Of a stretch of DNA of 58,543 nucleotides, positions 9,615-39,875 are shown piece after piece. The notes beneath the pieces are model-generated. The model made no database searches, was not told the origin of the DNA, and worked only from the letters and a program-made list of their open reading frames with translations. The stretch is from Bacillota bacterium (GTDB taxonomy: Bacteria > Bacillota > Sulfobacillia > JAJYWN01 > JAJZPE01): positions 1-58,543 of the forward strand of contig DASXUT010000067.1 in assembly GCA_036504675.1 (NCBI GenBank), written 5' to 3'. Each line of letters starts with the position of its first letter. Position 1 is the first letter of the stretch. A program made the translations under genes and the position numbers.

Positions 9615-10364
9615 ATGAGCATCACCGACACCAAGCCGCGCCCCGAGGACCTCAGGTCGGTCATCGTCAACGTCTTCCGGTTCGACCCGGCGACCACCGA
9701 CGAGCCGCACTACGACAGCTACAAGGTGCCGATGACCGGCAGCATGACCGTCCTCGACCTGCTCTTCTACCTTCTCGAGCACGAAGACGGCTCGCTGGCC
9801 TTCCGCTATGCCTGCCGCGAGGCCATCTGCGGCAGCTGCGCCCTCTACGTCAACGGGACCTACCGACTGGCCTGCAAGACCCAGCTCAAGGACCTCAAGG
9901 CCGAGGAGATAAGCATCAGCCCGCTACCCCACCTCAAGGTGATCAAGGACCTCGTCGTCGACATGGACCCCTTCTGGGAGAAGTACGAGCGGATCAGGCC
10001 CTACCTGATCAACGACGAGGCCCCGCCGGAGAAGGAGTTCATCCAGTCCGCGGCCGACCGGCTGAAGATGGACGACATGGTCGACTGCATCCTCTGCGGG
10101 GCCTGCCACTCGTCATGCCCGCAGGTCTGGACGGACGAGGAGTACCTCGGCCCGGCGGCCCTGTTGAAGCTGAACCGCTTCACCGTCGACACCCGGGACC
10201 GCGGCAACAAGGAGCGGACCAAGCTCTTCGACAACGAGCAAGGGGTCTGGCGCTGTCACACCATCTTCAACTGCGTCGAGGCCTGCCCGAAGTCCATCAA
10301 TCAGACCTACTCGATCCAGCACCTCAAACGCCGGGCGGTGGCCCGGAGGCTGGGGATGAAATGA
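9615..10364 (+). CDS. sdhB: Succinate dehydrogenase/fumarate reductase iron-sulfur subunit
   Basis: 249 residues, usual for the family, starting at ATG 9615 after AGGAGGT. Cluster motifs are CREAICGSC plus C (residues ~70-90) for [2Fe-2S], CILCGACHSSCP for [4Fe-4S] and CHTIFNCVEACPKSI for [3Fe-4S]. It carries electrons from FAD to the membrane anchor. The TGA at 10362-10364 lies in the right end of an inserted IS element. Joining the sequence left of the insertion (..ATGAA) to that right of it (GTAA..) recreates ATG AAG TAA, so the insertion left the protein sequence unchanged. Confidence 0.95.
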   Translation: MSITDTKPRPEDLRSVIVNVFRFDPATTDEPHYDSYKVPMTGSMTVLDLLFYLLEHEDGSLAFRYACREAICGSCALYVNGTYRLACKTQLKDLKAEEISISPLPHLKVIKDLVVDMDPFWEKYERIRPYLINDEAPPEKEFIQSAADRLKMDDMVDCILCGACHSSCPQVWTDEEYLGPAALLKLNRFTVDTRDRGNKERTKLFDNEQGVWRCHTIFNCVEACPKSINQTYSIQHLKRRAVARRLGMK

Positions 10365-10541: not shown

Positions 10542-11513
10542 TTACGCCGCTGCCAGACCGCTAATCGCTCGCGCGATGTTCAGCGCAGCGACGGCGTCCG
10601 CGTGGCCGGAGTGCCCGCAGGACCTGCACCGGAAGTGTATCCCCGAGCGGTTCTCCTTCGCCGTCGACCCGCAGGCGGGGCAGGCCCGACTGGTGTTGGT
10701 GGGCACGGCCCACTCCACCTTGAGGCCCGCAAGGTTAGCCTTGTAGGTGATGAAGCTCTGCAGGCGATGGAAGCTCCATGAGTGCAGGCTGCGGCCGCGG
10801 TCCCTGCGGTCGCGCTTGGGTCGCAGCCGATCCACGTTGCGCATCCACCACTGTTCCTTGTCCTTCATGCGCTTGATGGCCCGCAGAGCTTTTGCCCGCC
10901 CCATCCTGCGCCGGAGAGCGGATATGCGGCGCCGCACGTAGGCAGCCTGGCCCCCACTGAAGAACAGCGTTTCGCCTTCGCAGTTGACCACGGCCAGGTT
11001 GCGCAGGCCGAGGCCGATCCCCGCCACCTTCGCTCCGGCGCACGGCGCCGGCTTGACGGTGACAGACAGGGCCAGGTACCAACGCCCTCGCTGCTCATAC
11101 AGTTTGGCGGCCCCTTGCTTGATGGTGGAGCCCAATTGGGAGAGGATGCAGGTCTGCCGCTCGGTGGTGGCCAGGGGTACGCGGACCCGGCCTGCATGGG
11201 TCGGAAAACTCGCCGTCCAGAAGTCCCCTGTCTTTACCAGGCTCAGGTTCTGGTTGTTGAAGGAAGGCGGCAGAACTCGGAATCGCCCAACCCTCCGGGC
11301 GGCGGCCACCTCCCGCAGAACCTGGCACACGATGACCGAAGGGATAGGGGCGGGCGCATATGGGGCCGCCGTCCTGCTGGTCAGCCCGCGAGGGCGCCCG
11401 GCTGCGACAAGGTTGTTGGCCAGGACCGTGGTCCGGGACGTCAGTTCCCTGTACAATCGCTGCTTGACCTGGGTTGGGCGGTGTAGCTTCAGTCTCAGGG
11501 TCAACCTCTGCAC
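10542..11513 (-). CDS. tnpB: TnpB-like protein with lost RuvC catalytic residues
   Basis: 323 residues from GTG 11513, preceded by GAGGAGGTGATATCC. It keeps the N-terminal RNA-binding region, the Trp-Ser-Phe-His-x-Leu-Gln segment (residues 246-252), the zinc finger C278/C281/C296/C299 and the RuvC-III Asp in GHADAVAALNIA (D306). The RuvC-I motif reads GIGLGLRNLAV: G167 stands where the catalytic Asp should be (GGC for GAC). The segment between NVDRL and RDRGRSLHSW is about 30 residues too short and lacks the ED-L/R motif with the RuvC-II Glu. The frame is otherwise intact. It is either a decaying nuclease or an RNA-guided binder without cleavage, as known for domesticated TldR proteins. Confidence 0.8.
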   Translation of the reverse strand: MQRLTLRLKLHRPTQVKQRLYRELTSRTTVLANNLVAAGRPRGLTSRTAAPYAPAPIPSVIVCQVLREVAAARRVGRFRVLPPSFNNQNLSLVKTGDFWTASFPTHAGRVRVPLATTERQTCILSQLGSTIKQGAAKLYEQRGRWYLALSVTVKPAPCAGAKVAGIGLGLRNLAVVNCEGETLFFSGGQAAYVRRRISALRRRMGRAKALRAIKRMKDKEQWWMRNVDRLRPKRDRRDRGRSLHSWSFHRLQSFITYKANLAGLKVEWAVPTNTSRACPACGSTAKENRSGIHFRCRSCGHSGHADAVAALNIARAISGLAAA

Positions 11514-11514
11514 T

Positions 11515-11777
11515 CGGATATCACCTCCTCTTCGGGATTGGACGTACTGTTCGATGATCCCCGCAGGAGCACGCCCGGTGAAGCGTTCACAAACAGGTGT
11601 ACATCGGGCATGACTTCCAGAGCCAAGACCACCAGGTCCAGTTCCCTGACAACTTCCTCCAATAGCTCCAGGAACGGCCTGTCCACTTCGCGAGTCAGAG
11701 CGCCGATACCGGGGGTACCACACGGAGTGGTAGTTGACCAACGAAACGGAGGCATGCTTGTTCCAGTCGGTGTCCAC
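11515..11777 (-). pseudogene. Broken IS200-type TnpA (HUH transposase)
   Basis: From GTG 11777 the frame reads VDTDWNKHA.. NYHSVWYPRYRR, typical of a TnpA start. The homology then continues in another frame (ELLEEVVRELDLVVLALEV) to MPDVHLFVNASPG. The HUH motif should read DHVHLF; one His codon (CAC) is missing. The core between that motif and the C-terminal IIEQYVQS, which holds the Tyr region, is deleted. Frameshift, missing His and internal deletion make it non-functional. Confidence 0.75.
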
Positions 11778-11783
11778 AGGCCC

Positions 11784-11812
11784 ATCCTAACACGAACACG
11801 TGTTCGGGTAAA
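11784..11812 (-). promoter_or_regulatory. IS promoter with LexA box in the spacer
   Basis: On the minus strand TTTACC (11807-11812), 17 bases, TAGGAT (11784-11789). The spacer holds CGAACACGTGTTCG at 11793-11806, a perfect palindrome matching the Bacillus-type LexA consensus. Transcription would start close to the GTG of the tnpA remnant. A second LexA box with the same half-sites controls the mutagenesis cassette at 34951-34964. Confidence 0.65.
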
Positions 11813-11902
11813 GGGGTGGGCGATTCACCCCACGACTGAAGCCGTGGGCTTTCTCGCCCGGTTTCTGTAAGCCGAAGACGGATCCCCTACCGCCCGAAGG
11901 CC

Positions 11903-32945: not shown

Positions 32946-34412
32946 CTAGTCGCTCAGGCCGGCGTCGGCCTTGCGGATGATTTCCTCCAGTTCCCGCTGG
33001 GCCTCGGGGGCGAGCGGCTGGGTCTCGTATTCACGGATCGTCTTCTGGGCGATCTCGGTGGCCTTCTCAAAGGCCCCGGCCCGACCGGAAGTCTCCCACA
33101 CTTGGAGCGGGCTACGGTCGACGATGGTCGGCCGCCAGATCTCCCGCATGTGGGCCCGGGTGTGCTTGTGGGAGAGGTAGTTGCCGCCGATGCCGACTTC
33201 CTTGATGACGTCGACGGCGAGGGTCTCGCGGTCGACCGGGATGCCTTGGGAGAAACGCCGGGCGATCTCGTAGATCTCGGCGTCCATGATGATCTCTTGG
33301 AAGGACATGATCTTCGAGCCATTGAGCATGCCCGCGCCGGTCATCATGGCCACGGTGGTGAAGACCGAGGCGACGGTGGAGAAGACGTTGTCGACGGCGG
33401 CCTGCCAATCGGGCATCTTGGCTCCGGTGGCCATGGTCCCCATCGACAGCGGGATGCCGTAGTGGGCGCAGATCTCCTGGAAGCCGGCGGCCAGGAGGTA
33501 GTCCTCCGGCCCGCCGCCGGTGTAGCTCCCAAGGCGGAGGTCGATGGCGGTGGGCGCGGCGGCGAAGAAGAAGGGCGAGCCGGGATGGGCCGTCTGCATC
33601 AAGACCAGCGGGGCCAAGGCGTCAACCGTCGTCACCACCAGGTTGCCGGCCAGGGTCGCCGGGGCGGTGGCACAGGACATCGGCATCGGCATGAAGCCGG
33701 TCGGCAGTCCGTGCTCGGCGGCCACCAGTGAGGCTTCCAGGCTGCCGCCGTCTTGGCCGAGCGGGTCCATGGCGCACTGCATGACCGACAGGACGGGGCG
33801 CTTGCGGAGCTCCTCGTAGCCGCCGGCGACGACGGCCGCCATCTCCACGGAATACCTGGCGACCTCCTCGTCGATGATCGTCTCCGGCTGGACGTGCTTG
33901 GCCGTGCCGGCGAAGGCCGCCTGCAGCTCGTGAAGGGGACGGGTCTTGGCCGGGACGTCCTGAGCGCTGACCATCGGTCCCCAGTAGAAGGCGATGGCCG
34001 GCAGGGAGTCAGCCAATCGCGCCGAGTCTTCGATGTCTTTCTTGGTCGATAGCCGGCGGGTGCCGGTCCACAGATCATAGGTCTCGATGCCGCAGCCGTC
34101 GGTCGACAGGTAACAGTGCTTGCCGTCGAGGTCGAGGTTGTTATCCGGGTCGCGGGCGCCCAGGACGTACCGTTTCGGGGCCGTCTCAAGGGCTTTCTCG
34201 ACCAGGCCGCGGGGCAGCTTGACGTGCATCTTCTCGCGGTTCACGGTGGCCCCCGCGCCGGCCAGGATGTCCAGGGCCTTGTGGGATGGCATCGAGACGC
34301 CGACCTCTTCCATGACCTCGAGCGCGGCCTGGTGGAAAGCCTCGAGTTCTTCCCTGGTGAACAGTTTGACCTGTAGCTTTGGCTCAATGGGCAGGATCCT
34401 CTGGCGGGCCAT
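32946..34412 (-). CDS. MttB-family (non-pyrrolysine) methyltransferase
   Basis: 488 residues from ATG 34412 after GGAGGAGATGACC. Family marks are FTREELEAFHQAALEVMEEVG at the N-terminus (residues 18-38), GGSLEASLVAAEHGLP, ATGAKMPDWQAAVDN near residue 345, and YLSHKHTRAHMREIW near the C-terminus. No in-frame stop of any kind interrupts the frame, so no amber-encoded pyrrolysine is used, as in MtgB, MtpB and MtcB. Those act on quaternary amines such as glycine betaine, proline betaine and carnitine. The substrate here is unknown. First gene of the operon with corrinoid protein, folate methyltransferase, sigma-54 activator and KamA. Confidence 0.92.
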   Translation of the reverse strand: MARQRILPIEPKLQVKLFTREELEAFHQAALEVMEEVGVSMPSHKALDILAGAGATVNREKMHVKLPRGLVEKALETAPKRYVLGARDPDNNLDLDGKHCYLSTDGCGIETYDLWTGTRRLSTKKDIEDSARLADSLPAIAFYWGPMVSAQDVPAKTRPLHELQAAFAGTAKHVQPETIIDEEVARYSVEMAAVVAGGYEELRKRPVLSVMQCAMDPLGQDGGSLEASLVAAEHGLPTGFMPMPMSCATAPATLAGNLVVTTVDALAPLVLMQTAHPGSPFFFAAAPTAIDLRLGSYTGGGPEDYLLAAGFQEICAHYGIPLSMGTMATGAKMPDWQAAVDNVFSTVASVFTTVAMMTGAGMLNGSKIMSFQEIIMDAEIYEIARRFSQGIPVDRETLAVDVIKEVGIGGNYLSHKHTRAHMREIWRPTIVDRSPLQVWETSGRAGAFEKATEIAQKTIREYETQPLAPEAQRELEEIIRKADAGLSD

Positions 34413-34910: not shown

Positions 34911-34939
34911 TTGACAGCCACCCGAGGGGTGGGTATAAT
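34911..34939 (+). promoter_or_regulatory. Perfect sigma-A promoter of the mutagenesis cassette
   Basis: TTGACA (34911-34916), 17 bases, TATAAT (34934-34939), all at consensus. Silenced by the LexA box immediately downstream. Confidence 0.88.
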
Positions 34940-34950
34940 GAGCTTAGACC

Positions 34951-34964
34951 CGAACAGGTGTTCG
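34951..34964 (+). promoter_or_regulatory. LexA (SOS) box
   Basis: CGAACAGGTGTTCG fits the Bacillus-type consensus CGAAC-N4-GTTCG exactly. It begins 11 bases after the -10, so bound LexA would cover the transcription start. It makes the cassette DNA-damage inducible. Confidence 0.85.
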
Positions 34965-34992
34965 GGACAGATTTATACTCGGGGTGGGGGTC

Positions 34993-36360
34993 ATGCGTCG
35001 AATCGCTTTTATCGAGGTTCGTGGACTCTTGTGCGGGGCTCTGGCCGAGGGGCTCATTGAAGCGAGGGGTCAGGACGGTGATGACCGGCCGGCGGCCGGG
35101 GCGAAGGTGGTCATCAAAGACGGCCGGGTCCTTGACTTCTCGGCCGAGGCCGGGGCCGCCGGAGTCCTGGTCGGCGTCCGCGAACGCCATGCTAAGCAGG
35201 CCTGCCACTGGGCCAAATTGGTCGACTATGACGAGGCTGCCTACCGCCCCGTGGTCAGCTCGTTCTTCGACCTCCTTATAAACCTCTCGCCGGTCATCGA
35301 ACCGGTTTCGGAAACCCAGGCTTTCGTCGATTTGACCGGTCTCCGGGCGGAAGGCGAGGCCCTAGCCGCCCTGGTCGGCTCGGCCGTCCCGAGGATGGCC
35401 TTCAAGCTTTGGATCGGAATAGCTTCCTCCAAGCTCGTGGCCAAGGCCGCCGTGCTCGGCTCCCAGGGAGCCTATACGCCGGCCCGACTGACCCAGGTGA
35501 CGACCATGCCAGGCGCGGAGATCATCGAGGTTCTCAGGGGCGGCGAGGCCGACTACCTGGCGCCGCTGCCGCCCGATCGGCTCTGGCGGCTCGATGAAGC
35601 CACCGTCTCGAAGCTCGAAGGGCTGGGGATCACGACCATCGGGCAGCTGGCCCACCTGCCCCAGGGCCAGTTGAACCGGCGCTTTGGTCTTGGCGGCCGG
35701 CTCATCCTCGACCTCGCCCGCGGCCTGGACCCAGCTCCAGTGCGCCCGCTCTATCCGCGGCGGGAGTTCGAAGAGAGGTTACCTTTCGATGCCGGCGTGT
35801 CCGACGCCAAGGTCGTCGCCGCCGCCGCCGGCCGGTTGGCCGTCAAGCTGAGCCGTCGCTTGAGCCAGAACTTTGAGGGTTGCCGGCGGGTCCTCCTCGA
35901 AGTGCGGGCCGGGCCGACGGCCTACCACGCAGCCCGCGGTTTTCCCCGGCCGGAGTCCTCGGCCGCTACTCTCAAGGGGGCGCTGATGACCCTTCTCTCC
36001 AGGCTGACAATCAATGAACCGGTGACTTCGCTCAAGGCCGTGGCCGGTGACCTCACCCCCCTGTCGGGCCTGCAGCCAGACCTGTTCTACGAACCCGTCG
36101 CGGTGTCCCACGAGCGGGCCAAGGCCCGGGAAGGGCTGGGAGGGACGATTGAAGCCCTGCGCCAGAAGTACTCCGACCGGGTGATCGCCTTCGGCAAGGA
36201 TGACGAGGTGCCCCGGCGCGAAAGGATGCTGGCCCTTTGGGATCCCTACCGCTCAGGGAGGAGCGAACCATGTCCCGTATCGTCGACTGCCGCATCTCGG
36301 TCGAACTCAACCCCGACCATACCCCACGGGCCTTCCGTCACCGCGCTTTCCACCGGGTGA
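34993..36360 (+). CDS. imuB: ImuB-like inactive Y-family polymerase
   Basis: 455 residues from ATG 34993 with GGGGTGGGGG upstream. Y-family architecture: palm/fingers in the first ~170 residues, HhH in KLEGLGITTIGQLAHLP near 210, little finger near 270-380. Catalytic carboxylates are missing: the first motif reads AFIEVRG in place of hxhDhDxFFA, and the SVDE motif reads VSETQAFVDLTG. This is the ImuB pattern, a non-catalytic adaptor that brings an error-prone DnaE to damaged DNA and the beta clamp. The last ~30 residues overlap the next gene in another frame. LexA-controlled. Confidence 0.88.
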   Translation: MRRIAFIEVRGLLCGALAEGLIEARGQDGDDRPAAGAKVVIKDGRVLDFSAEAGAAGVLVGVRERHAKQACHWAKLVDYDEAAYRPVVSSFFDLLINLSPVIEPVSETQAFVDLTGLRAEGEALAALVGSAVPRMAFKLWIGIASSKLVAKAAVLGSQGAYTPARLTQVTTMPGAEIIEVLRGGEADYLAPLPPDRLWRLDEATVSKLEGLGITTIGQLAHLPQGQLNRRFGLGGRLILDLARGLDPAPVRPLYPRREFEERLPFDAGVSDAKVVAAAAGRLAVKLSRRLSQNFEGCRRVLLEVRAGPTAYHAARGFPRPESSAATLKGALMTLLSRLTINEPVTSLKAVAGDLTPLSGLQPDLFYEPVAVSHERAKAREGLGGTIEALRQKYSDRVIAFGKDDEVPRRERMLALWDPYRSGRSEPCPVSSTAASRSNSTPTIPHGPSVTALSTG

Positions 36361-36566
36361 AAGAGATCCTCGACCGGTGGGTCGAGGCCGGCGAATGGTG
36401 GGACGGGGACGGTCCAAAGGAAGTCTTTCGGGTAGCCACTGACGACGGCGGGGTCTTCGAGCTGTCGCGGGAGGTGGAGAAAAGGTCCTCGGGCCCGCAG
36501 GACGCAAAGCCGGCCGGATTAGGCGCAAACGGAGAAGAGTGGAAACTCTACAAGATCTATGACTGA
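36270..36566 (+). CDS. Small DUF6504-like protein of the mutagenesis cassette
   Basis: 98 residues from ATG 36270, with GGAGGAGCG upstream. HRVKEILDRWVEAGEWW, a middle FRVATDDGGVFELSRE and C-terminal EEWKLYKIYD follow the pattern of small proteins (DUF6504) found beside Y-family polymerases. No catalytic motif. The first 91 bases overlap the imuB tail, so the two are translationally coupled. Perhaps a mutasome accessory. Confidence 0.75.
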   Translation: MSRIVDCRISVELNPDHTPRAFRHRAFHRVKEILDRWVEAGEWWDGDGPKEVFRVATDDGGVFELSREVEKRSSGPQDAKPAGLGANGEEWKLYKIYD

Positions 36567-36584
36567 TTGAAACGGGGCCCGACG

Positions 36585-39500
36585 ATGACCTTCTCACACC
36601 TGCACGTCCACAGTCAGTTTTCCTTCCTCGATGGGGCCGGCCGCATCGAGGACCTGGTAAGCAAATCCGCCGATGACGGTTCTCCGGCCATCGCCGTGAC
36701 CGACCACAGTAATCTCAGCGTGGCTGTCCCGTTGGCCAAGGCCGCCAAGGCCGCCGGGATCAAAGCTATCCAAGGGGTCGAGCTATGGGTAGCTACTCCG
36801 CTCGCGTCCGAGCCGGAAAAGTCCGCCGGCGACGCCAGCGCCGGCGTGGCTGGCGGGCACCTAACCTTGCTGGCCCAGAACCCCCGTGGTTACGCCAACA
36901 TCTGCCGCCTGGTCAGCCGAGCCCACCTGGAGAATCCCCGACTGGATCCGCGGGTTTGGCCGGCGGCGCTCCGGGTGAATAGTGAAGAGGTCATCGCCCT
37001 CTCCGGCTGCCGCCGCGGCGAGATCCCTTCGCTGATCCTGCGAGGTCGCCACCAGGAGGCTTTGGAAGTCGCCGGCCGCTATCGCGACCTCTTCGGACCC
37101 GACCGTTTCTTCATCGAGTTGCAAGATGAACTCCTACCCGGGACGACCGCCCTCGTCAAGGACTTGAAGGAGTTGGCCGACCGGTTGGGCCTCCGGGTCG
37201 TGGCCACCAACAACGTCCATTACCTGACCAAAGCAGGTTTTCCCACTCACGACCTGCTGACCTGTGTCCGGACCCTGACGACCATCGGTGAGGTGCACCC
37301 CGAACGCCGACTCAACGCCGAGAACTACCTCAAGTCGCCGACCGAGATGGTCGCCCTCTTCAGGGCCCACCCCGAGGCCGTCCGCACCACCGAGGAGATT
37401 GCCGAGCGCTGCCAGCCCGCGCTGGACTTGGGGGCCAACCTCTTCCCCAAGTTCACCGTGCCCCTGGGGGAGACGGCGGGCTCGTTCCTCCGCAAGGTAG
37501 CCAGTCAGGGCGCCGTCTGGCGTTACCGGACGATCACTCCAGACATCCGCGGCCGTCTCGACCACGAGCTCGACATCATCACCAAGCTGGGCTACGAGGA
37601 CTACTTCTTGCTCGTCTGGGATGTCGCCAAGTACGCCCGTGGTCAGGGGATTCGGTTCGCCGGGCGAGGTTCGGCCGCCGACTCAGCGGTGGCCTATTGC
37701 CTGGGGATCACCGACGTCGATGCGATTCGGCGGGGCCTCCTCTTTGAGCGCTTCATGAGCCTGGAAAGGGCCGAGAAACCGGACATCGACATCGATTTCG
37801 ACGCCCGTCACCGTGACCGTGTGACCCGTTACATCTATGAGCGCTATGGGGCCGACCGGGTGGCGACGGTCGCTACCTTCAACACCTTTCAAGGACGCTC
37901 GGCCATCCGCGACCTCGGGAAGGTCCTGGATTTCCCCCCCGAGGAGCTCGACCGGTTGGCCAAGAGGCTTCCCTGGATCGGCGCCGATGAATTGAAGCTG
38001 GCCTTTGAGGGGCTCCCGGAACTCAGGCAGGGCGGCCTGCTTCCGGTCAGGCGCTATCAGAAGCTCTTTGAGGCGGCGGCCGAGGTTGCCGGATTCCCCC
38101 GGCACCTCGGAACCCACCTTGGCGGGGTGGTCATCTCGGCCTGCCCGTTGAACGAGGTTACCGCCCTTCAGGAGGCGGCCAAAGGCGTCGTCGTCTGCCA
38201 GATGGACAAGACGCAGGTCGAGGACGCCGGTCTGGTCAAGCTGGATCTCCTTTGCCTGAGGACGATGGGCGCAGTCGAAGAGTCGGTCCGAGCCATCCAA
38301 ACCGCGGCCCGGGGCACCCCGCCCGCGGCCTCCGCCACCCCGCCAGGGCCGCCGGCAGGCGCCTTCGACTACGACCAAATCCCGATGGACGACCCCGAGG
38401 TCTACAAGCTCCTTCAGACGGGGAAGACGATCGGCGTCTTCCAGCTCGAGAGCCCGGCTCAGCGGGCCCTCCAGGCCCGCCTGGGGACGGAGGACATCGA
38501 GGACATCGTCGCCAGCGTGGCCCTCATCCGGCCGGGCCCGATCAAGGGCAACATGGTTGAGCCGTTCATCGCCCGCCGGCGCGGGCGGGAGCCGGTCACC
38601 TACCTGCATCCGGCCCTCGAGCCGATCCTCGAAAGGACCTATGGCGTCGTCCTTTTCCAGGAGCAGGTCATCGAGATAGCCACGGCCGTCGCCGGTTTCA
38701 CCCCGGGGGAGGCCGACCGTCTTCGCCGGGTGATGAGCCATGCCCGCTCGCGCAAGGACATGGAGGAGATCGGCCGCCTCTTCGTGGAGAAGGCGCGGGC
38801 CAAAGGGGTCGAGGGGGAGGTGGCCGAGACCGTCTTCGGCTACATGGCCGGGTACGCCAGCTATGGGTTCTGCGAGGCCCACGCGGCGGCCTTCGCCAGT
38901 ACTGCTTACAAGACGGCCTACCTCCTCCGGTACCACCCGGCTGAGTTCTTCGCCGGCATCCTGACCCTTCAGCCGATGGGCTATTACCCACCCAACACCA
39001 TCTGCGTCGAGGCCAGGCGACGTGGGGTGGCCATCCTTCAGCCCGACGTCAACAAAAGCGGCGAGGCTTTCCAGGTCGAGACGATCAATGGACGCGAGAC
39101 GGCCGAAGGGGATCCGCCGAAACAGGGCATCCGCATCGCCCTCAAGAGGGTCAAGGGGATGAGCAGCCAAGCCCTGGGCTCGATCATCAAAGGCCGCGGC
39201 GAGCGGCCCTTCGCTGATCTCTTTGACTTCTGCGCCCGGACCACGGTCGACCGTGACATCATCGAGAACCTGATCAAGGTCGGCGCCTTCGACTCGCGGG
39301 AGCCGAACCGCCGGGCGCTTCTCTGGTCGCTCGACGACGCCCTGGCCCGGGGAAGCGTGGGCGGACTGCTGGAGGTGGCCGAGCCGGCCCCGCCAAGCCC
39401 GGCCATCGATGACTTCACCGAGTTCGAGAAGATCGCCTTCGAGCATCAACTCCTGGAGATCCAGGTCAGGCGGCACTATATGAGCCTGCTCCGGGAAAGA

Positions 39501-39875
39501 CTAAGGGCCGCCGGCTTTTGCGCCAGTCGTTCCCTGGCGGCGATGAGCCGCGGCCGTCCGGTGAAGATCGCTGGATTGTTGGTCCGGCCTCATCGTCCGC
39601 CGACCAAGAGCGGAAGGACCGTGGTCTTCCTGTCCCTCGAGGACGAGTTCGGGCTGGCCGACGTGACCGTCTTCGAATCCGTTTACCAGAAATACGGGCA
39701 GTACATCTTCTGCGATCCCTGTCCGCCGCTGATCGTCTGGGGCCAGATCGAACGGCGGGGGAAGGGGGTCAGCGTTACCGCCGAACGGCTGGCCCACCTG
39801 GACCCGAAGGACCTGCCGCGGGACCCGACCGCGCCGCGGTGGCGGGCGAAAAGCCTGCGGGAGTATCAGCCGTAG
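36585..39875 (+). CDS. dnaE: DnaE-type DNA polymerase III alpha (error-prone, DnaE2/DnaE1 clade)
   Basis: 1096 residues from ATG 36585; TTG 36567 is an alternative. N-terminal PHP domain HLHVHSQFSFLDG, active-site motif EKPDIDIDFDARHRD near residue 400 with the Asp pair, GVVLFQEQVIEIA and YGFCEAHAAAFA in the fingers, and a C-terminal OB fold (VKIAGLLVRPHRPPT). Length and order after imuB match SOS mutagenesis cassettes in which ImuB, a small partner and DnaE carry out translesion synthesis. It also resembles DnaE1-type enzymes, but the LexA promoter makes the mutagenic role more likely. Confidence 0.93.
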   Translation: MTFSHLHVHSQFSFLDGAGRIEDLVSKSADDGSPAIAVTDHSNLSVAVPLAKAAKAAGIKAIQGVELWVATPLASEPEKSAGDASAGVAGGHLTLLAQNPRGYANICRLVSRAHLENPRLDPRVWPAALRVNSEEVIALSGCRRGEIPSLILRGRHQEALEVAGRYRDLFGPDRFFIELQDELLPGTTALVKDLKELADRLGLRVVATNNVHYLTKAGFPTHDLLTCVRTLTTIGEVHPERRLNAENYLKSPTEMVALFRAHPEAVRTTEEIAERCQPALDLGANLFPKFTVPLGETAGSFLRKVASQGAVWRYRTITPDIRGRLDHELDIITKLGYEDYFLLVWDVAKYARGQGIRFAGRGSAADSAVAYCLGITDVDAIRRGLLFERFMSLERAEKPDIDIDFDARHRDRVTRYIYERYGADRVATVATFNTFQGRSAIRDLGKVLDFPPEELDRLAKRLPWIGADELKLAFEGLPELRQGGLLPVRRYQKLFEAAAEVAGFPRHLGTHLGGVVISACPLNEVTALQEAAKGVVVCQMDKTQVEDAGLVKLDLLCLRTMGAVEESVRAIQTAARGTPPAASATPPGPPAGAFDYDQIPMDDPEVYKLLQTGKTIGVFQLESPAQRALQARLGTEDIEDIVASVALIRPGPIKGNMVEPFIARRRGREPVTYLHPALEPILERTYGVVLFQEQVIEIATAVAGFTPGEADRLRRVMSHARSRKDMEEIGRLFVEKARAKGVEGEVAETVFGYMAGYASYGFCEAHAAAFASTAYKTAYLLRYHPAEFFAGILTLQPMGYYPPNTICVEARRRGVAILQPDVNKSGEAFQVETINGRETAEGDPPKQGIRIALKRVKGMSSQALGSIIKGRGERPFADLFDFCARTTVDRDIIENLIKVGAFDSREPNRRALLWSLDDALARGSVGGLLEVAEPAPPSPAIDDFTEFEKIAFEHQLLEIQVRRHYMSLLRERLRAAGFCASRSLAAMSRGRPVKIAGLLVRPHRPPTKSGRTVVFLSLEDEFGLADVTVFESVYQKYGQYIFCDPCPPLIVWGQIERRGKGVSVTAERLAHLDPKDLPRDPTAPRWRAKSLREYQP

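Follow-up and report, generated by a model that had tools for sequence, protein, structure and literature searches.

A probable LexA operator in the tnpB promoter of a decayed IS200/IS605-type element, with counterparts in other Bacillota

Introduction

TnpB, the ancestor of Cas12, is encoded by one of the commonest genes of prokaryotes, and to our knowledge little is known about the natural timing of its expression. The DNA analysed here, a stretch of 58,543 nucleotides from a Bacillota bacterium hereafter called the window, bears on this point: in an IS200/IS605-type element, the promoter next to the left end holds a perfect palindrome with the sequence of a LexA box. This raises the question of whether the palindrome is a LexA operator and, if so, which product of the element it controls.

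Results

The palindrome lies in the promoter of a decayed element

The features of the element, in the order in which they are read, are as follows.

11819-11866, minus strand: left end (LE), with the hairpin CCCACG...CGTGGG (11829-11848) followed by GTGAATCGCC; TTAC flank at 11867-11870
11807-11812, minus strand: -35-like hexamer TTTACC; siblings have TTGACC, TTGCAC or TTGACG in the same place
11793-11806, strand not applicable: LexA (DinR/Cheo) box CGAACACGTGTTCG, a perfect palindrome of Firmicutes consensus, with the same half-sites upstream of lexA and imuB
11784-11789, minus strand: -10-like hexamer TAGGAT, or AGGA ribosome-binding site of the tnpA remnant; siblings have TATAGT, TATGAT or TATAAT
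about 11530-11777, minus strand: remnant of tnpA (Y1) with a frameshift; lacks the first His of HUH (MPDVHLF) and the C-terminal half
10542-11513, minus strand: tnpB, 323 codons, GTG start after GAGGAGGTGAT; PF07282, NF040570
10348-10491, minus strand: right-end or omega-RNA-like region, RE hairpin end near 10362; weak Rfam HgcC match

On the minus strand, TTTACC (11812-11807) is followed by CGAACACGTGTTCG (11806-11793), TGT (11792-11790) and TAGGAT (11789-11784), and the 17-base spacer that the first-pass annotation had described between the two hexamers is present as claimed, filled by the palindrome. The promoter itself is weak, each hexamer matching four of the six bases of the sigma-70 consensus, and is surpassed by those of siblings (TTGACC-17-TATAGT, TTGACG-18-TATAAT). 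Within TAGGAT, AGGA precedes the GTG of the tnpA remnant (11777) by seven bases, and the hexamer may be a ribosome-binding site instead of a -10 element. An operator CGAAC-N4-GTTCG overlapping a promoter, as found here, is expected of members of a LexA (SOS) regulon of the Gram-positive type. Exact copies of this motif occur at two sites only in the window, 11793-11806 and 34951-34964. When up to three mismatches are allowed in the 14-mer, five sites are found against 2.87 expected, which is by itself not unusual; what goes beyond chance is the exactness of the site, its position and its recurrence.

The element has the hallmarks of the IS200/IS605 group in its subterminal hairpin ends, its TTAC flank without terminal inverted repeats and a TnpB with the RuvC/TNB zinc-ribbon domain, which scores 65.8 bits with PF07282 (cut-off 26.3) and 109.3 bits with NF040570 (cut-off 100). 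The same LE is found at C172, G002 C9, C46, C38, G041 and G124, and the right-end region matches Rfam HgcC (RF00062) at 29.6 bits (E=1.8e-4), under the gathering score of 50. An intact tnpA is missing: only the frameshifted remnant is left, whose second piece gives a weak Pfam Y1_Tnp match below the cut-off (E=0.0058), and neither a Y1_Tnp match nor an intact Y1 transposase was found in the whole genome. For this reason we file the copy as a relic and not as an active member. Its TnpB is also damaged, the first D of RuvC being replaced by G (GIGLGL) and the stretch bearing the E deleted, which leaves the state G, gap, D, with two of the three residues gone. Because of this substitution and deletion, the nuclease is predicted to be dead, and the protein may be regarded as the product of a pseudogene or as a dead-nuclease derivative. 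On this evidence the element in the window is dead, a relic in which the operator persists, and the box appears to serve no working element now; since the TnpB is predicted to be inactivated, no present function of the box is evident.

A search of the genome with the 400-bp left-end region returned only a deletion relic at C172 (10027-10120; L002 1501-1620), the true siblings being too diverged; these were recovered by the inventory of boxes and by TnpB protein searches. In the C172 relic, which is MITE-like, LE and RE are joined and the interior is deleted. It shares the RE hairpin of the window element and has lost the right half of the box (GACCCGAACGCTCGACC).

LexA and the other SOS-type boxes of the genome

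The genome encodes a LexA protein (PF01726, 91.5 bits) that matches PDB LexA structures to E=3e-38. Three boxes, CGAACAGATGTTTG, CGAACAGACGTTCC and CGAACGTGTGTTTG, lie upstream of its gene and use the same motif as the window site, that is the published Firmicutes LexA motif CGAACRnRYGTTYC / tacgAACatatGTTcgta (PMC2248561). The other exact site of the window belongs to a mutagenesis cassette, which serves as the in-genome control.

34951-34964, strand not applicable: LexA box CGAACAGGTGTTCG, the second in the window, located behind TTGACA (34911-34916), 17 bases and TATAAT (34934-34939) and serving as operator of the mutagenesis cassette
34984-39875, plus strand: SOS mutagenesis cassette encoding an imuB-like Y polymerase, a DUF6504 protein and a dnaE2-type polymerase

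That the half-sites of the element recur at this cassette had already been remarked, and the exact box before imuB-DUF6504-dnaE2 bears it out. A gene similar to those of trimethylamine-corrinoid methyltransferases (32946-34412; TIGR02369 below its cut-off) lies beside the cassette.

In the whole genome there are 12 exact CGAAC-N4-GTTCG sites, compared with four for the reversed pattern, and in three cases the site lies in the promoter of a TnpB element. Another, 25 bases before a gene for an ImmA/IrrE-like peptidase recognised by inspection of its HELGH motif, is located at C191:760 (L017). In the order sample of four genomes described below, the genes preceded by the remaining exact boxes include imuB, DinB-family, GyrI-like and DinF/MATE-like genes, named by sequence inspection and not by profile searches; in three genomes (L008, L271, L290) the box stands directly before a gene for a DinB-superfamily-like protein of about 150 residues. 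Some loci first taken for element copies or element promoters turned out to be other LexA-type promoters. L007 and L020, picked by left-end similarity, are promoters of a helicase gene and of the lexA region, respectively, and L281 and L284 are imuB promoters, excluded from the count. At L007 (about 1501-1532, G002 C50), the boxed promoter TTTACC..TTAGAAT, nearly identical to that of the window, drives a gene that by sequence inspection encodes a YprA/MrfA-like helicase.

Boxed tnpB promoters in the genome and its order

The check that the first-pass annotation had set for itself, whether sibling copies keep the box, came out in favour of its proposal, at C161 and C74 of the same genome and at further elements of the order, so that the site is retained in sibling promoters. 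The C161 element carries CGAACATCTGTTCG in TTGCAC-17-TATGAT and the C74 element CGAACGTATGTTCG in TTGACG-18-TATAAT; the tnpB genes of both have diverged from that of the window, and the left end of C74 is different as well.

The order sample consists of four multi-contig assemblies, G000 to G003, of which G000 is the window genome and G002 a MAG (Bacillota, DBS2-4.bin104). Together they hold 59 exact boxes, and the reversed pattern occurs 18 times (2-7 per genome); about 41 of the exact sites are therefore beyond chance. A TnpB homologue in the right orientation was found by tblastn downstream of 21 of the 59 boxes, three in G000 (window included), six in G001, ten in G002 and two in G003, and three further boxed left-end relics (L276, L278, L287), without tnpB in the available sequence, bring this number to 24. 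Roughly half or more of the sites beyond chance are thus TnpB elements, and tnpB promoters form the largest class of assignable perfect boxes in the clade of the window. The view that a LexA box is rarely built into an IS promoter is consequently wrong for this clade.

Part of the element set was found via the box, which inflates the raw counts, and samples drawn by tnpB first are free of this bias. Among the 22 order elements with enough upstream sequence, 10 have a strict box within a 500-base stretch at the tnpB start, where shuffled sequences give a mean of 0.055, and none has a strict box in an equal-length stretch within the ORF. The strict rule scores as negative L169, the sister of the window TnpB, which has AGAACGTGTGTTCG in TTGACC-17-TAGAGT, and two other elements whose sites are one base off.

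Of the 33 elements, most have the box in the 16-18-base spacer that separates -35 and -10; type D (G001) and G163 have it immediately behind the -10. Within each element type the half-site positions are 96-100% conserved and the four central bases 61-83%, as would be expected of an operator bound by a dimer. At G002 C9 and C46 the half-sites are CAAAC, matching half-sites upstream of lexA.

Distribution in Bacillota and in the TnpB tree

A search of 398 genomes of the phylum provided 70 TnpB elements, most of them without a box; promoter boxes were found at L221, L226, L235, L245 and L250. The L221 element (G488) has a pair of LexA boxes some 1 kb ahead of the zinc-ribbon domain of its tnpB; the first occupies the spacer and the second follows the -10. 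Boxed TnpB elements occur in Neobacillus rhizosphaerae (CGAACTCACGTTCG in TTTACC-17-TATAAT), on pBM20 of Bacillus methanolicus (AGAACAAATGTTCT, after the -10) and in Priestia koreensis (AGAACACAAGTTCT). No box is present in a plasmid element of Enterococcus faecium with intact tnpA and tnpB. In other families of the window's class, none of 13 sampled TnpB elements has a box, and G073 (L028) is the sole boxed case. A match at L231 lies inside the tnpB ORF and was excluded from the count. The class-wide pattern GTGGGRYGAATCGCC was set aside as returning mostly chance sites, and a pattern scan of genome contigs gave 33 places, of which three are in G002, one is in Neobacillus, nine are haloarchaeal ends and the rest are mostly chance-like.

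When mapped on a tree of 77 TnpBs, 19 of them boxed, the presence of the box requires 12 trait changes, at least nine of which are forced by well-supported branches. The true number may be slightly lower, L169 having been scored as unboxed under the strict rule, and the tree counts changes rather than gains, exchange of promoters between elements being possible.

The product under control is most likely TnpB

The promoter had been assigned to tnpA and tnpB together, which fits poorly with what was found: the tnpA of the window is a frameshifted remnant, the genome holds no intact Y1 transposase and the boxed siblings are mostly tnpB-only. By tnpA status, a box is present in 22 of 65 elements without tnpA, in three of nine with a tnpA remnant and in one of 17 with a tnpA-like frame, a contrast that is suggestive only, because part of the set was added for its box. 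The one boxed element with a tnpA-like frame (L250) has neither a start codon nor a normal end in that frame. In contrast to the window TnpB, which lacks the RuvC D-E-D triad of an active nuclease, 18 of the 19 boxed TnpBs of the tree keep it. Since boxed elements nearly all lack an intact tnpA and 18 of 19 keep the D-E-D triad, the controlled product is most likely TnpB with its guide RNA, chiefly an RNA-guided nuclease and not the single-strand transposase. The rationale first offered, a transposon that needs single-stranded DNA, thus gives way to one in which the box of live siblings would govern the TnpB nuclease.

Discussion

Taken together, our results suggest that the palindrome is a LexA operator in the tnpB promoter of an IS200/IS605-type element, from which TnpB and its guide would be released in the SOS response, and that the window copy is a dead relic of such an element; we give this reading a probability of about 0.83. 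The core of the earlier proposal, an IS200/IS605-type element with a LexA-type operator in its promoter, is thereby supported at the level of sequence. Weighing against the reading are the predicted inactivation of the window TnpB and the many TnpB elements that have no box.

A different explanation of the palindrome is that it belongs to the structure of the IS left end, as a second DNA hairpin for TnpA or as an RNA hairpin, and happens to look like a LexA box. In type A its distance to the LE hairpin is constant (GAATC-N15-box), and a similar dyad exists in haloarchaea, where IS605-like ends and MITEs (L055, L056, L064, L065, L071, L073, L079, L080, L085) have CACGAAC-N4-GTTCGGTG, or a sequence close to it, equally far from the LE hairpin. 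We know of no LexA in the haloarchaeal hosts of these ends. Because such ends carry the dyad in hosts presumed to be without LexA, a dyad at that place alone is no proof of LexA. However, two type A copies have CAAAC...GTTCG, in which one stem pair is broken and the site is still LexA-like, this half-site being found upstream of lexA; other element types retain the box at the promoter despite other left ends and spacings; it follows the -10 in type D and G163; and the left ends of the unboxed relatives L021 and L022 have no dyad. We therefore consider a structural role very unlikely.

Binding of a regulator other than LexA that recognises the same sequence, such as a phage-type or ImmA-linked repressor, seems to us somewhat less likely still. 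The exact box before the ImmA/IrrE-like peptidase gene at C191 would fit it, but the same kind of site precedes lexA, imuB, DinB-family and MATE genes, lexA is present, and the motif is the one published for Firmicutes LexA (PMC2248561). Least probable is that the boxes are chance palindromes or descend from a single old boxed element that was merely copied. CGAAC-N4-GTTCG does arise by chance a few times in a genome of this size, as the two to seven reversed patterns per genome illustrate, but boxes at tnpB starts in the order sample exceed those in shuffles by about two orders of magnitude, the boxed TnpBs occur at dispersed places in the tree, nine or more changes being forced, and both box centres and left ends differ.

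If the palindrome is a LexA operator, DNA damage probably switches on the boxed TnpB nucleases. In the undamaged cell, LexA bound between -35 and -10 would block RNA polymerase; upon damage, RecA-triggered cleavage of LexA would free the tnpB promoter. TnpB, together with the guide RNA derived from the 3' end of the transcript, would then be confined to the SOS response, a time of high RecA and recombination functions. The benefit would be that element-free sites are cut when repair from an element-bearing copy is possible, with low toxicity otherwise. TnpB cutting aids transposon retention, in the manner of homing endonucleases (PMC11870625). A wider proposal, to which we give even odds, is that acquisition of a LexA operator has been a recurrent event among the tnpB-only elements of Bacillota, TnpB and guide being made only upon damage; a TnpB cut could itself trigger SOS and lead to more TnpB, a possible positive loop that would couple retention or homing to the recombination state of the cell.

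Repeated gain of a LexA operator at tnpB promoters would mean that in many elements production of the nuclease is restricted to SOS conditions, and would imply that much of the SOS regulon of these genomes consists of transposon genes. Such SOS control of a nuclease is to be set apart from the known way in which damage acts on IS605 transposition, by means of single-stranded DNA. The role of TnpB is testable in culturable hosts such as Neobacillus and Bacillus methanolicus.

Comparison with known systems

In the open-access full texts dealing with LexA together with TnpB, IS605 or OrfB, we found no report of LexA control of tnpB. Several systems resemble the present one in part. SOS links of transposition are reported for Tn5/IS50 and IS10, which differ from the elements described here in their transposase chemistry; in the case of Tn5, the part played by LexA is disputed (PMC13393415). 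The integron integrase intI and other mobile elements are described as LexA-controlled (Fornelos 2016, as cited in PMC13393415), and intI is likewise a mobile-element enzyme under the host SOS repressor, but a site-specific recombinase and not an RNA-guided nuclease. ISDra2 of Deinococcus radiodurans is also an IS200/IS605 element with tnpA and tnpB, whose transposition is raised by irradiation; this was put down to the single-stranded DNA substrate, no induction of transposase expression by irradiation having been found (PMC2806898), whereas here control would be transcriptional and of tnpB.

With respect to its protein, the window TnpB recalls TldR, the TnpB-derived, nuclease-dead RNA-guided repressors (PMC13418256), in that RuvC residues are missing. 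We set this assignment aside: a deletion and the decay of tnpA accompany the loss and suggest a pseudogene, and a single dead copy is concerned, whose boxed relatives keep the triad.

The nearest case is that of the IS91-like ISCR1, ISCR2 and ISCR8, whose transposase promoters have a LexA box with binding by EMSA and SOS induction by lacZ fusions; according to the same study, SOS control is known for few IS (PMC13393415, June 2026). Like the boxed tnpB elements, these are HUH-type insertion sequences with a LexA box in a promoter; there, the box is CTGT-N8-ACAG, in E. coli, and controls a transposase, whereas here it is CGAAC-N4-GTTCG, known from sequence in many elements of Bacillota, and would control mostly tnpB alone.
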